Source: Albidovulum sp.
Lineage (GTDB): Bacteria; Pseudomonadota; Alphaproteobacteria; Rhodobacterales; Rhodobacteraceae
DNA: 64,000 bases
Reading direction: 5' to 3'
Assembly (NCBI GenBank): GCA_026989275.1
Contig: JALSJQ010000008.1
Span: forward strand, 1-64,000
This document shows positions 8,767 through 41,486 of the stretch, piece after piece (the first letter of the stretch is position 1; every line of letters starts with the position of its first letter). The position numbers were made by a program, and so were the translations under genes. The notes below the pieces were generated by a model that saw only the letters and a list, made by a program, of their open reading frames with translations, was not told where the DNA came from and did no database searches.

Positions 8767-9837
8767 ATGGCATATCGGCTCGAAAGACTGACCGATCTCG
8801 ATGCGCTGCCTTTCGACGAGGTGATCGACGCGCGTTCCCCCGCGGAGTTTGCCGAGGACCATCTGCCCGGGGCGCTGAGCCTGCCTGTGCTCGACGACGA
8901 GGAGCGTGCCCGCGTCGGCACGATCTACGTTCAGGAGAGCCGCTTCCGCGCCCGGCGGATCGGTGCGGCGCTCGTGGCCCGCAACGTGGCGAAGCATCTC
9001 GAGGGGCCGCTGGCCGACCGGCCCGGAGGCTGGAAGCCACTGATCTATTGCTGGCGCGGCGGGCAACGCTCGGGCTCCTTTGCGCTCATCCTGCGCGAGG
9101 TCGGCTGGCGGGCCGAAACTCTCGAAGGCGGCTGGAAGAGCTGGCGCCGCCTCGTGGTGCGGGCGGTGCAGGAGGATCCGTTCCCGGCGCCTCTCGTGCT
9201 CATCGACGGCAATACCGGCACCGGCAAGACCGACATTCTCGCAGCCCTCTCCCGAGGTGGCGTGCAGGTGATCGATCTCGAGGGACTGGCCAATCATCGC
9301 GGCTCGCTCCTCGGGGCACGGCCCGGAGGGCAGCCGTCGCAGAAGAGGTTCGAGGGGCGGCTGGCGATGGCCCTCGCCCGGCTCGATCCGCACCGGCCGG
9401 TGGTGATGGAAGCCGAATCGAGTCGCATCGGCCGGCTGAGCATTCCCCCGGCGGTCTGGAAGGCGATGAAGACGGCGCCGCGCATCGTGCTCGACGTCCC
9501 GACAGAGGAGCGCGCCCGCTACCTCGTGCGGGCCTATGCCGACGTGATCGCCGACCGCGCCCTGCTCGAAGCCCGGATCGAGAGCCTCAGGCCATGGCAT
9601 GCCCGCGAGGTGATCGAGGCGTGGCAGCAGATGGTGCGGCAGGGGCGGTTCGAGGCGCTCGCGGCCGATCTCATGGCACGTCATTACGATACCCGCTATG
9701 CGCGCCAGCGCGCCCGGGCCGATGTGCCGGTGCGGATCCTGCCCCATGACGACCTCTCCCCGGCCGGGATCGAGCTTGCTGCGGGGCGGGTTGCGGCGTT
9801 GCTGCCCGAGCTGCTGCCGATACGGGCGGGCATGTAG
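8767..9837 (+). CDS. selU: tRNA 2-selenouridine synthase
   Basis: SelU (MnmH) replaces the sulfur of 2-thiouridine at the tRNA wobble position by selenium, via a geranylated intermediate, using selenophosphate. The 356-residue product has an N-terminal rhodanese domain with catalytic Cys95 in YCWRGGQRSGS, then a P-loop domain with Walker A GNTGTGKT (148-155) and the RIGRLSIPPAVWKAM block typical of the family. Length matches known SelU. ATG at 8767 follows GAGCGGGG. Its selenium donor, SelD, is encoded at 39029-41212 in this window. Confidence 0.95.
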   Translation: MAYRLERLTDLDALPFDEVIDARSPAEFAEDHLPGALSLPVLDDEERARVGTIYVQESRFRARRIGAALVARNVAKHLEGPLADRPGGWKPLIYCWRGGQRSGSFALILREVGWRAETLEGGWKSWRRLVVRAVQEDPFPAPLVLIDGNTGTGKTDILAALSRGGVQVIDLEGLANHRGSLLGARPGGQPSQKRFEGRLAMALARLDPHRPVVMEAESSRIGRLSIPPAVWKAMKTAPRIVLDVPTEERARYLVRAYADVIADRALLEARIESLRPWHAREVIEAWQQMVRQGRFEALAADLMARHYDTRYARQRARADVPVRILPHDDLSPAGIELAAGRVAALLPELLPIRAGM

Positions 9838-33922: not shown

Positions 33923-34738
33923 TCAGGAATTTGCGAGATGGCCGGTGGCGGCGATGAACTCGCACAGGAGCCCCGCATATTCCTCCGGCTTCTCGACGCA
34001 GGGGATGTGCCCGGCACCGCGGATGAGGGCGAAGCGTGCGCCCGGGACGAGATCGGCGGTTTCGCGCACGAGGTCGGGCGGGGTCGAGCCGTCCTCGCTG
34101 CCGGTGATGGCGAGCGTCGGCAGGCGCAGCCGCGCGGTGCTCTCGGCGAGGTCTGCATGGCCCACGGCCAGCGCACAGGCCACATAGCCCTCGATCGGCT
34201 GGCGGACGAGCATGTTGCGCCATCCGACGATCTCCTCGGGGCGCTCCTCGCGGAAGCGGCGCGAGAACCAGCGTTCCATCACGCTGTCGGCCACCACCTC
34301 GATGCCGCCGGCCCGGATCCGGGCGGCCCGTTCCTCCCACATCTGTGGCGTGCCGATCTTGGCGGCGGTGTTGGAGATCACCATCGCCCGGACGAGATCG
34401 GGTCGTTCGGCAGCCAGCCCCTGGGCGATCATGCCGCCGATCGAAAGGCCGACGAAGAGGCAGTCGCGCACGCCGAGAGCGTCGAGCAGGGCGGCGGTGT
34501 CGGCCACGAGCTCCCCGAGCGACCAGCCGCCTTCGGGGGAACGGGGTGGCAGCGAGGAAAGCCCGTGGCCGCGCTTGTCGTAACGGATGATGCGCAGCCC
34601 GTCGGGCAGGTGGGGCAGAAGGGCGTCCCAGAGCCGAAGATCGGTGCCGAGCGAATTCGCGAAGACGAGGGCCGGCGCTTCCCGCGGCCCGCGGTCGTCA
34701 TGATGGAGGACGACATCGCCAAGCCGGATCATCCGCAT
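33923..34738 (-). CDS. pcaD: 3-oxoadipate enol-lactonase
   Basis: Alpha/beta-hydrolase of 271 residues hydrolysing 3-oxoadipate enol-lactone in the beta-ketoadipate pathway. Catalytic pattern: nucleophile elbow GLSIGGM, acid in GSEDGSTPPDLV, and His in GAGHIPCVEKPE. LVFANSLGTDLRLWDALLPHL and RYDKRGHGLS are typical of PcaD. The start at 34738 has AGGAAAGAG upstream; the frame is open to 34930 but unconserved. No pcaC/B/G/H genes are in the window. Neighbour of pobA. Confidence 0.82.
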   Translation of the reverse strand: MRMIRLGDVVLHHDDRGPREAPALVFANSLGTDLRLWDALLPHLPDGLRIIRYDKRGHGLSSLPPRSPEGGWSLGELVADTAALLDALGVRDCLFVGLSIGGMIAQGLAAERPDLVRAMVISNTAAKIGTPQMWEERAARIRAGGIEVVADSVMERWFSRRFREERPEEIVGWRNMLVRQPIEGYVACALAVGHADLAESTARLRLPTLAITGSEDGSTPPDLVRETADLVPGARFALIRGAGHIPCVEKPEEYAGLLCEFIAATGHLANS

Positions 34739-35067
34739 CGCTCTTTCCTCTCGTGCAGCTGCATTTTCGTCCATCATACCGGGCGCTCCCCGCCCGGAAC
34801 AAGCCATGCGCGCGGCATTCTGCGCCCGTGCGGGGCCGGCCTTGCGTTGCGGCGCTCCGGGGCTTCCTGTCCGCCCGGTGGGAAAGCGGTGCGGGGATGC
34901 GCCGACCGGCCCGGGCCCTGCGGGCGGCACGAAGCGCGGCCCGGCATCCCTTCCCTGCGGAGACGACGGCCTTCTCCATGCTGCCGGCCTGCCGCATCGC
35001 TGCCCGGTGCATGCTCGGGCCGTTCCGGCCGGAAGGGGCTCCTCTCCCGCGGAACGCCCTCATCCTG
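34739..35067. other. 329-base gap between pobA and pcaD
   Basis: Both flanking genes are on the minus strand. No gene is seen. A 7-bp stem with a 5-base loop (CCGGGCG/CGCCCGG) at 34779-34797 lies just before pcaD, and TTCCGGCCGGAA, a 12-base palindrome, lies near 35023. A promoter for pcaD-tetR may be here. Confidence 0.45.
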
Positions 35068-37752
<2,685 letters not shown>

Positions 37753-38820: not shown

Positions 38821-38994
38821 ATGACGATCGAAGGCCATCTGGCAGCCTTGAAGGAAAAGCACGCAGCGCTCGAAGCCGAGATCGAGAAGGCCTTGCAGAG
38901 CCCGGCGACCGATCCGTTGCACATTGCCGAGCTCAAGAAGCGCAAGCTCCAGATCAAGGAAGAGATCGAGCGGCTGAGCCAGAAAGCCGGCTAG
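38821..38994 (+). CDS. YdcH family protein (DUF465)
   Basis: 57-residue alpha-helical protein, MTIEGHLAALKEKHAALEAE through LHIAELKKRKLQIKEEIERL, the DUF465/YdcH pattern with paired amphipathic helices. Function unknown; very widespread in proteobacteria. The ATG at 38821 is preceded by GGGGAGG. It converges with the selD fusion gene. Confidence 0.85.
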   Translation: MTIEGHLAALKEKHAALEAEIEKALQSPATDPLHIAELKKRKLQIKEEIERLSQKAG

Positions 38995-39028: not shown

Positions 39029-41212
39029 TCATTCCCCTTCGAGAGTGAGGAAAGGGGGGCCTTCCGTCACATGGCCGATGACGGCCGCCTCGGGTTCGTG
39101 GCGGCGCAGTGCTTCGAGCAGGGCGTCGGCCTCCGCGGCCGGCACGGCTGCGAGGAGGCCGCCTCCGGTCTGCGGATCGAAGAGAAGATCGGCCACCGGG
39201 CCGGTGCCGAACCGCACGCGGGCAGCGGCGGCCGCGGTGTTGGCCGGCCAGATCGTCGAGCGGATCCCGGCTTCGGCGAGGGCGCGGGCACCGGGCAGGA
39301 GCGGCAGCGCATGCGCGTCGATCACGGCCGCGACGCCCGAGGCATCGAGCATTTCGAGCAGATGACCGGCCAGGCCGAAGCCGGTGACATCGGTCATCGC
39401 GTGGGCATGGCGTGCGAGAAGCCGGCCGGCCCCGATCTGCGGGCGCGCCATCATCGCCCAGGCGGCGGCCGCCTCCTCCCCGCGGGCCTGCCTGCGCATC
39501 TCGGCAGCGAGGATGACGCCGGTGCCGATCGGTCGGGTGAGAACGAGTGCGTCCCCCGGCCGTGCGCCGGCAAGGGTGATCGGCCGTTCCACGAGGCCGG
39601 TAATGGTGAACCCCACCGTCAGCTCATGTCCCATGCTGGTATGGCCGCCGACGATGGCGGCGCCGGCCGCGCCAAACACCCCGGCGGCCGCCGCCATGAT
39701 CTCGCGCAGGGTTTCCGCCTGCATCCGCTCGCTCATGCGCGGCAGGATGATCTGGGCGAGGGCGGCCTGCGGGGCAGCGCCCATGGCCAGCACGTCGCCC
39801 AGCGCATGGACGGCGGCGATCCTTGCCATCAGCCACGGATCATCGACGACGGCGCGCAGATGGTCGGTCGTCACCACCTGCCGCGTGTTGCCACAGGCCA
39901 GAATGGCGGCATCGTCGCCGGCACCGGCGAGAATGTCGGGTCGCCGGGGCGCGGCGAGATCGGCCAGCACCCGGCCGAGCGCTCCGGGGCCGACCTTGGC
40001 ACCGCAGCCGCCGCACAGGGGAGCCTCTCCGAGTGCCGCGTCGAGGGCCCGGGGCCGCTCGGGCGGCAGGCGCGGCGGGGCCATCTCCGGCAACTCGACG
40101 AACATGCGCATGAAGCGCCGGTCGATGCGGTCCTTCCAGTGCCAGAGCCATGCCCCGTCGAGCGGCAGGTTCCACTTGTCGGCCACCGCTCCCTTGCCGC
40201 CGGTAGAGATCAGCTTGAGGAAGTCGCGCTGCGGCCGGTAGCGCCTGAGCCGCCGGCCTGCCAGCGCGGCGCGAAGATTGTGGTGGAGAATCGGGGCCTC
40301 GCGGACGGCGAAGACCCCGGCCTTGGGGCGGGGTGCATGGTCGAGATGGGCGATGTCCCCGGCGGCAAAGACGGACGGGTCGGAAATGCTCTGCAGCGTC
40401 GGGCCGACCCGGATGAAACCCTCGTGCAGCGCAAGCCCGGTCTCGGTCAGCCAGGGCTGAGGCTGCGCTCCGGCGGCGCCGACGACGAGGTCGGCGGCGA
40501 GGTGACGCCCGTCTGCGAGGTGCACCCGGTCGGCAGCGACCCGCGCCACGGCGGCATCGGCGATGATGCTGATTCCGGCGCGGCGGAGGTGGCGCCGCAG
40601 CGCGGCGCGGGTGCCTCGGCCGAGCGTCGGCAGGATGTCGGGGCCGGCCTCGATGATGGTGATGTCGGGCGTGGCGCCGGCGTTCCGCAACCGATGTTCC
40701 ATCGCCAGCGCCAGCTCGACACCCGCCACGCCGCCGCCGATCACCACGATCTTCGCCGTCCGCCCTCGGGAACGCGTGACGAAGGCATCCCACCGGCGGG
40801 CGAAGTCGTGCAGCGGCTTTGCCGGCAGGGCATGGGCGGCGAAACCCGGGATGTCGGGCAGATCGGTGGTGATGCCGATGTCGATCGAGACGAGATCGTA
40901 GGCGACGGGCGGCCTGTTCGCGAGAAGCACATGCCGCTTCCGGCGGTCGAGTCCCACGGCACGATCGAGCACGAGCCGCGCCCCGGCATGGCGCGCGAGG
41001 CGCACGAGGTCGATGTCGAGCTCCTCGAGCCGGTAATGGCCGGCGACGAAACCGGGCAGCATGCCCGAATAGGGGGCGGTTGGTTCGGGATTGATCAGGG
41101 TGAGCCGCACCCCGGGCATCGGCTTCATGGCCCATGCAAGGAGGGTGAGGGCGTGGGTATGGCCGCCGCCGACGAGGACGACATCGTTGACGAGGGGCAG
41201 GGGGGTGTCCAT
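39029..41212 (-). CDS. selD: Flavoprotein (NDH-2-like)-selenophosphate synthetase fusion
   Basis: 727 residues. Residues 1 to about 375 form an FAD/NAD(P)-binding oxidoreductase like type II NADH dehydrogenases (VVLVGGGHTHALTLL, IVVIGGGVAGVELALA, FAAGDIAHLDHAPRPKAGVFA). From about 395 the chain is SelD, which makes selenophosphate from selenide and ATP: LCGGCGAKVGP holds Cys403 and Lys406, the catalytic pair (Cys17/Lys20 in E. coli); AGAGDDAAI and TDVTGFGLAGHLLEML follow. The active residue is Cys, not selenocysteine. The flavoprotein part may supply or hold reduced selenium. Start at ATG 41212; GTG 41242 is also possible. Works with SelU (8767-9837). Confidence 0.93.
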   Translation of the reverse strand: MDTPLPLVNDVVLVGGGHTHALTLLAWAMKPMPGVRLTLINPEPTAPYSGMLPGFVAGHYRLEELDIDLVRLARHAGARLVLDRAVGLDRRKRHVLLANRPPVAYDLVSIDIGITTDLPDIPGFAAHALPAKPLHDFARRWDAFVTRSRGRTAKIVVIGGGVAGVELALAMEHRLRNAGATPDITIIEAGPDILPTLGRGTRAALRRHLRRAGISIIADAAVARVAADRVHLADGRHLAADLVVGAAGAQPQPWLTETGLALHEGFIRVGPTLQSISDPSVFAAGDIAHLDHAPRPKAGVFAVREAPILHHNLRAALAGRRLRRYRPQRDFLKLISTGGKGAVADKWNLPLDGAWLWHWKDRIDRRFMRMFVELPEMAPPRLPPERPRALDAALGEAPLCGGCGAKVGPGALGRVLADLAAPRRPDILAGAGDDAAILACGNTRQVVTTDHLRAVVDDPWLMARIAAVHALGDVLAMGAAPQAALAQIILPRMSERMQAETLREIMAAAAGVFGAAGAAIVGGHTSMGHELTVGFTITGLVERPITLAGARPGDALVLTRPIGTGVILAAEMRRQARGEEAAAAWAMMARPQIGAGRLLARHAHAMTDVTGFGLAGHLLEMLDASGVAAVIDAHALPLLPGARALAEAGIRSTIWPANTAAAAARVRFGTGPVADLLFDPQTGGGLLAAVPAAEADALLEALRRHEPEAAVIGHVTEGPPFLTLEGE

Positions 41213-41486
41213 CGGAACTCGCTGGCCGGGAAGACGAATCACCCTGAACTTACGCGCATCGCCCGCTCCTTGCGAGAGGATGGTGACGCGATCGGGGGAA
41301 TTGCGGGCGGGCTTGTCCCGTCGCCTCGAGAGCGCGGACAGCCGGATCGGGCCGCGAGGGTGCGGGAGAGCGGGCGCTCTTCCCGTCTGTCTTCCCGCGC
41401 TCGCGGGGTTCTGGTTCGCTTTTCCGGGCGCGGCCGCTCCGACCGGCGGACTTGTGGCGCTGCAGGGGGAGGGCTATGTGCGGGGC
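41213..41486. other. Divergent gap between selD and the S49 peptidase gene
   Basis: 274 bases that must contain both promoters. No gene and no clear operator or riboswitch is seen. Confidence 0.45.

Follow-up and report, generated by a model that had tools for sequence, protein, structure and literature searches.

How selenide, which is toxic and easily oxidised, is presented to selenophosphate synthetase (SelD) without release has been an open question for decades. The Ndh-SelD fusion, in which a flavoprotein precedes SelD, is of a kind already known from papers of 2008 and 2015. A fusion of COG1252 to SelD was reported by Zhang et al. 2008, who suggested that the oxidoreductase acts on a selenium compound to provide it to SelD in reduced form (PMC2432076). 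Zhang and Gladyshev 2008 found the fusion in approximately 40% of the Cys-type SelDs of an ocean survey, always with a CxxC motif (PMC2398784). Mariotti et al. 2015 ranked it well ahead of any other SelD fusion in frequency, with a scattered distribution in bacteria and passage to some protists, and stated that selenoproteins and Sec machinery were present in the genomes with extended SPS genes (PMC4561486). A sequence-only reading of the DNA considered here had remarked that such fusions have been noted while their chemistry is unsettled, which these three papers bear out; its suggestion that the flavoprotein reduces selenium is, given the proposal of Zhang et al. 2008, the published hypothesis. 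No assay of any fusion member and no newer biochemical paper was found in the literature searched.

The flavoprotein half may be compared to NDH-2, the respiratory NADH:quinone oxidoreductase, in which a Glu, a GD pair and a C-terminal Lys/Asp serve NADH binding, the flavin and proton transfer. The quinone-site motif of NDH-2 is AQxAxQ, or the variants AQxAxR and APxAxQ (PMC5299459), and the first Gln of AQxAxQ clamps the quinone head (PMC6167311).

The window is a stretch of 64,000 nucleotides from Albidovulum sp. (contig JALSJQ010000008.1), whose genome is 2.57 Mb in size and 99% complete. The sequence-only reading had proposed a fusion at 39029–41212 and this is upheld, since a single open frame with an ATG start codon encodes 727 residues and both domains score above curated cut-offs. 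An alternative GTG codon lies 10 codons upstream of the ATG and would place the gene start at 41242. The features of the locus are as follows.

39029–41212, minus strand: fused gene, FAD/NAD-binding oxidoreductase domain and selenophosphate synthetase, 727 aa
40100–41185, minus strand: N-terminal flavoprotein domain (TIGR03169, Nterm_to_SelD), residues 10–371, NDH-2/SQR/FSP1 fold
41153–41170, minus strand: FAD-binding motif GGGHTH, residues 15–20, near-invariant in 128 fused proteins
40715–40738, minus strand: NAD-binding GxGxxGxE motif, GGGVAGVE, residues 159–166
40301–40318, minus strand: GVFAVR, residues 299–304, at the position of the NDH-2 quinone motif AQxAxQ (aligned to 4nwz)
40109–40144, minus strand: WHWKDRIDRRFM, residues 357–368, adjoining the flavin and the acceptor pocket
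40034–40096, minus strand: linker between the domains, residues 373–393
39032–40033, minus strand: SelD domain, residues 394–727
39995–40015, minus strand: C400-G-G-C403-G-A-K406, SelD catalytic Cys/Lys and an extra fusion-specific cysteine
8767–9837, plus strand: ybbB/selU, tRNA 2-selenouridine synthase, the likely consumer of selenophosphate

An hmmscan search of NCBIfam matched residues 10–371 to TIGR03169 with 525.8 bits (cut-off 310) and residues 394–694 to TIGR00476 (SelD) with 302.4 bits (cut-off 125); the Pfam calls Pyr_redox_2 and AIRS/AIRS_C concur. TIGR04369 (fusion_not_SelD) describes the same two-domain layout; however, that family has a cut-off of 700, which the window protein misses with a score of 437 while passing the SelD cut-off, and the SelD half is therefore taken to be a genuine SelD. 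An AlphaFold model of the 727-residue protein (mean pLDDT = 94, pTM = 0.92) points to a definite packing arrangement of the two halves.

Of 121 genomes of the Rhodobacteraceae-type family, 101 have a flavoprotein domain that scores above the cut-off, almost always as part of a frame of 700 or more residues, and the fused frame is also present in 80 named loci from other assemblies, the named relatives being mostly Rhodobacteraceae, Paracoccaceae and Roseobacteraceae with some Hyphomonadaceae. This recurrence rules out a frameshift, a chance frame or an assembly artefact. The fusion is real and well formed, and there is nothing unusual about it in its lineage, SelD in this family being usually of the fused form. 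With the Ndh-SelD proteins already described (COG1252-COG0709; TIGR03169 and TIGR00476) it shares the domain order, the N-terminal flavoprotein, the Cys-type SelD and the CxxC.

Elsewhere in the window, a charged frame of 57 aa (38821–38994, plus strand) is convergent with the fusion and approximately 35 bases from its stop codon; by eye, it resembles the YdcH/DUF465 type. Aromatic degradation genes, encoding a 3-oxoadipate enol-lactonase (pcaD) and a 4-hydroxybenzoate 3-monooxygenase (pobA type), occupy 33923–36267 on the minus strand.

NDH-2 likeness and the acceptor side of the flavin

In a structure comparison of the model, the first 375 residues match NDH-2 with a Z of ~42 (365 residues, 2.2 Å). 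SQR and FSP1 are also among the fold matches, with a Z of 34–37 for SQR and flavocytochrome c sulfide dehydrogenase. The two-dinucleotide-binding-domain layout of NDH-2 with its GxGxxGxE and GD is present in the window protein, which thus has the fold and the FAD and NAD sites in common with NDH-2. From an alignment to C. thermarum NDH-2, residues E172, GD and K379 of NDH-2 are retained as E166, D286 and K360, of which E166 corresponds to the conserved glutamate numbered E172 in S. aureus. Residues K360, I363 and D364 align with C. thermarum K376, I379 and D380; in NDH-2, the equivalent of I363 acts as a clamp on the quinone. Residue 188, which ends the second NAD strand, is acidic (Asp or Glu) in 124 of the 128 fused proteins, and this would favour NADH over NADPH.

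Unlike NDH-2, the window protein has GVFAVR at the quinone site, and a match to AQxAxQ, AQxAxR or APxAxQ was not found in it. In the same alignment, Q317 and Q321 of NDH-2 are replaced by V300 and R304, both of which are identical in all 128 fused proteins. The fused set reads GV(F/Y)AVR at this position and the GVxAVR pattern extends to 15 of 16 lone flavoproteins. Since AQxAxQ is replaced in this way, the flavoprotein domain is probably not a quinone reductase. The description "NADH-dehydrogenase-like" in the sequence-only reading therefore stands with respect to the fold, but not in its quinone-reducing sense.

These data bear directly on two alternatives. YjlD and C. thermarum NDH-2 are the best matches of the domain in both sequence and fold, as would be expected of a respiratory NADH:quinone oxidoreductase that had become fused to SelD incidentally; however, AQxAxQ is replaced in all fused proteins examined, only the first C-terminal helix of NDH-2 aligns (residues 354–372) before a linker and SelD take the place of what follows, and the presence of the domain follows that of YbbB, a genomic tie to selenium that also sets it apart from NDH-2. 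We consider this explanation extremely unlikely.

The second alternative is an oxidative, SQR-like domain that would clear competing sulfide or excess selenide from the vicinity of SelD. SQR needs redox cysteines beside its flavin. The window protein contains three cysteines (C400, C403 and C440) and none in residues 1–399, so that a cysteine pair of the SQR or disulfide-reductase type is absent from the flavoprotein domain. A cysteine at position 287 (GDC) is present in most relatives, but is not kept in all. While the domain belongs to the same structural superfamily, which includes SQR crystallised with sodium selenide (3sz0; Z ~37), and has the two-dinucleotide-binding-domain flavoprotein fold in common with SQR and flavocytochrome c sulfide dehydrogenase, it differs from both in having no cysteine and an NADH-type second site. 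As the quinone acceptor motif is also gone and GxGxxGxE and the acidic residue 188 are conserved in the fused proteins, an SQR-like role is quite improbable.

The SelD half and its cysteines

In an alignment to E. coli SelD (3u0o), C403 falls on C17 and K406 on K20, and the sequence-only reading, which had described a complete SelD with Cys403/Lys406, was thus correct in its numbering. Neither residue varies among the 128 fused relatives, and the ATP/Mg aspartates D434, D450, D473 and D608 are invariant in the family alignment. The catalytic Cys/Lys and the ATP-site aspartates are common to the window SelD and the standalone SelDs of E. coli and A. aeolicus, with an identity of ~34% to the E. 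coli structure. In contrast to the GCGCK of standalone SelD, the fusion reads CxxCxxK. The additional cysteine, C400, is likewise invariant in the fused relatives: C400-x-x-C403-x-x-K406 is present in 128 of 128 fused proteins, whereas none of nine standalone SelDs, all with GCGCK, has the CxxC. This result bears out the claim of 2008 in another set of proteins. Owing to the linker, the loop that bears the CxxC lies 37 residues beyond I363.

Association with tRNA 2-selenouridine

The product of the window ybbB matches the YbbB profile with 356.8 bits against a cut-off of 219.75 (8815–9720). Its start at 8767 was inferred from relatives, the frame being open from 8665. The gene faces the fusion at a distance of 29 kb; in most relatives, the two genes adjoin. 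The genome holds one SelD and one YbbB. SelA was not found in a profile search of the genome and its two tRNA-Sec matches are tRNA-Ser, and a selenocysteine-decoding trait was rejected for this genome. With YbbB present and both SelA and tRNA-Sec absent, the fusion would serve tRNA 2-selenouridine and not selenocysteine, and it is very likely from the conserved residues and gene content that the SelD half is functional and supplies YbbB. Neither this link nor the CxxC is part of the sequence-only reading. Set against the Ndh-SelD genomes with Sec machinery (PMC4561486), the present genome has only the 2-selenouridine trait; otherwise nothing essential differs.

YbbB, SelA and SelD were searched for in 80 of the 121 family genomes, including all those that lack the flavoprotein domain. 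A fused SelD is present in 55 of the 80, counting one that is split by contig ends, and these 55 genomes have YbbB in 54 cases and SelA in none. The ybbB gene is convergent with the fusion and no more than 1.5 kb away in 41 of the 55, and in one further genome it lies within 1.5 kb on the same strand. A standalone SelD was found in five genomes, of which four have SelA, these four belonging to a single genus. SelD is absent from the remaining 20, of which 18 also lack the flavoprotein domain and two (G022 and G086) have a lone flavoprotein. One genome of 99% completeness (G045, L128:5392–7545) has an intact SelD fusion with no detectable YbbB or SelA, and its SelD is an orphan.

The comparison was extended to 299 Pseudomonadota genomes of 154 genera, where the domain was called at E ≤ 1e-70 and positives fell in twelve families. 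The flavoprotein domain, fused or lone, is present in 29 genomes. YbbB accompanies it in 27 of the 29, compared to 44 of the 270 genomes without the domain (p = 4e-17, Fisher test with shared ancestry ignored). When the family of the window genome was removed, the proportions were 15 of 17 and 43 of 267 (p = 9e-10, with the same disregard of ancestry). No association with SelA was seen among the 299 genomes (3 of 29 with the domain, 31 of 270 without), and the domain is present in none of the 13 that have SelA but not YbbB. The domain thus tracks YbbB and not SelA. Among YbbB genomes, the domain occurs in 3 of 21 with SelA and in 24 of 50 without; a SelA-linked depletion is not claimed, as p = 0.22 once the family was removed.

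In phage records, only SelD-domain matches of ~33–36% identity were found and no fusion. They lie in the unannotated records OR846590, MT835821, MT836694 and OR845817 and are likely host DNA carry-over.

Separated flavoproteins and the proposed supply of selenide

In a tree of the flavoprotein domain, two lone domains fall within the fused Rhodobacteraceae clade, although the nearest forks are modestly supported. From this placement, there appear to have been two losses of SelD from the fused gene. In one case (G094), the ybbB stop codon is directly followed by the first base of the lone flavoprotein frame and a standalone SelD of the CGCK type lies 139 kb away, an arrangement that implies that the flavoprotein was retained with the 2-selenouridine gene after SelD was lost. 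In the other (G086), there is a lone flavoprotein and no detectable SelD or YbbB. Outside the family, the Pseudomonadota set holds five fusions and 12 lone flavoproteins, and 10 of the 12 are accompanied by a separate SelD and YbbB. The fusion is therefore not essential for the role of the domain, and the covalent linkage and the CxxC may be considered refinements rather than the core function.

The best reading, and one that we hold to be reasonably probable, is an enzyme with two activities that belongs to the tRNA 2-selenouridine pathway and in which electrons would pass from NADH to FAD and serve to make or keep selenide at SelD. NADH would reduce FAD, and FADH2 would donate electrons not to a quinone but to the C400/C403 pair; alternatively, the acceptor would be a small selenium species held at C400/C403, such as a perselenide or selenodisulfide. 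Selenium would be released or kept as HSe-, SelD would convert it with ATP to selenophosphate, and YbbB would use the selenophosphate to change 2-thiouridine to 2-selenouridine at tRNA position 34. Because the acceptor side of the flavin is unlike a quinone site and the SelD loop follows so soon after it, selenide may be both formed and consumed on the spot. The flavoprotein is rather likely to be what provides the electrons for selenide at SelD, and the published hypothesis of a flavoprotein that supplies reduced selenium fits the evidence presented here. A function of the CxxC as an electron relay is put forward tentatively; it cannot be the sole acceptor in all members, since it is absent from the SelD of G094 and from every other standalone SelD sampled from a genome with the flavoprotein.

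The same separations bring in another explanation, namely that the flavoprotein acts on a diffusible partner, either a carrier protein or a free selenium compound (the candidates being a selenite product, selenodiglutathione, polyselenide or Se0), with the fusion aiding only capture and the CxxC not acting as a relay. Separate flavoproteins and SelDs in the 10 sampled genomes outside the family and in G094, the operon of flavoprotein and ybbB in G094, and the CGCK type of all standalone SelDs read are in keeping with this, and the alternative retains some weight since the separate pairs make linkage and CxxC refinements. The complete co-conservation of the CxxC with the fusion, however, suggests that a role for the second cysteine arose when the domains were joined, and a diffusible partner is considered somewhat unlikely. 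A mainly structural or regulatory domain, such as an NADH/NAD+ redox sensor that gates SelD, would agree with the fact that no chemistry has been shown for the flavoprotein; yet E166, D286 and K360, the catalytic residues of NDH-2, show little or no variation and separate flavoproteins persist, which makes this role very doubtful.

Returning to the supply of selenide by the flavoprotein, it is possible, though we would not yet favour it, that Nterm_to_SelD proteins, whether fused or separate, are dedicated NADH-dependent selenide generators for 2-selenouridine and that the fusion added a CxxC relay to SelD. If so, this would be a new activity on the NDH-2 scaffold, in which a conserved GVxAVR would form the centre of a remodelled quinone site. 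A flavoprotein that is joined to SelD and has a rebuilt NDH-2 quinone site gives a direct handle on the question of selenide delivery, and the natural separations of the two halves show which experiments would settle it. The published idea becomes easier to test with the link to 2-selenouridine, the change of the quinone motif and the cases of fission.

Some members may act on another substrate, given that lone flavoproteins occur in genomes with no detectable SelD or YbbB (G086, G022 and G205) and in G306, where the sole SelD match is below the cut-off. The G086 protein (L124:5167–6288) is full length and 52% identical, with serA/serC-like genes downstream, and is either a remnant or has a second function. 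G306 (L153:913–2619) and G205 (L162) are outside the family and have lone flavoproteins with neither YbbB nor a SelD above the cut-off. The lone flavoprotein of G303 (L163), in a SelA-bearing genome, has decayed motifs (GECA, SLSHSSR) and may be losing its function. The genome G289 (L140, L169) has two separate SelDs, of which one is fused and has the CxxC and the other is standalone and of the CGCK type.
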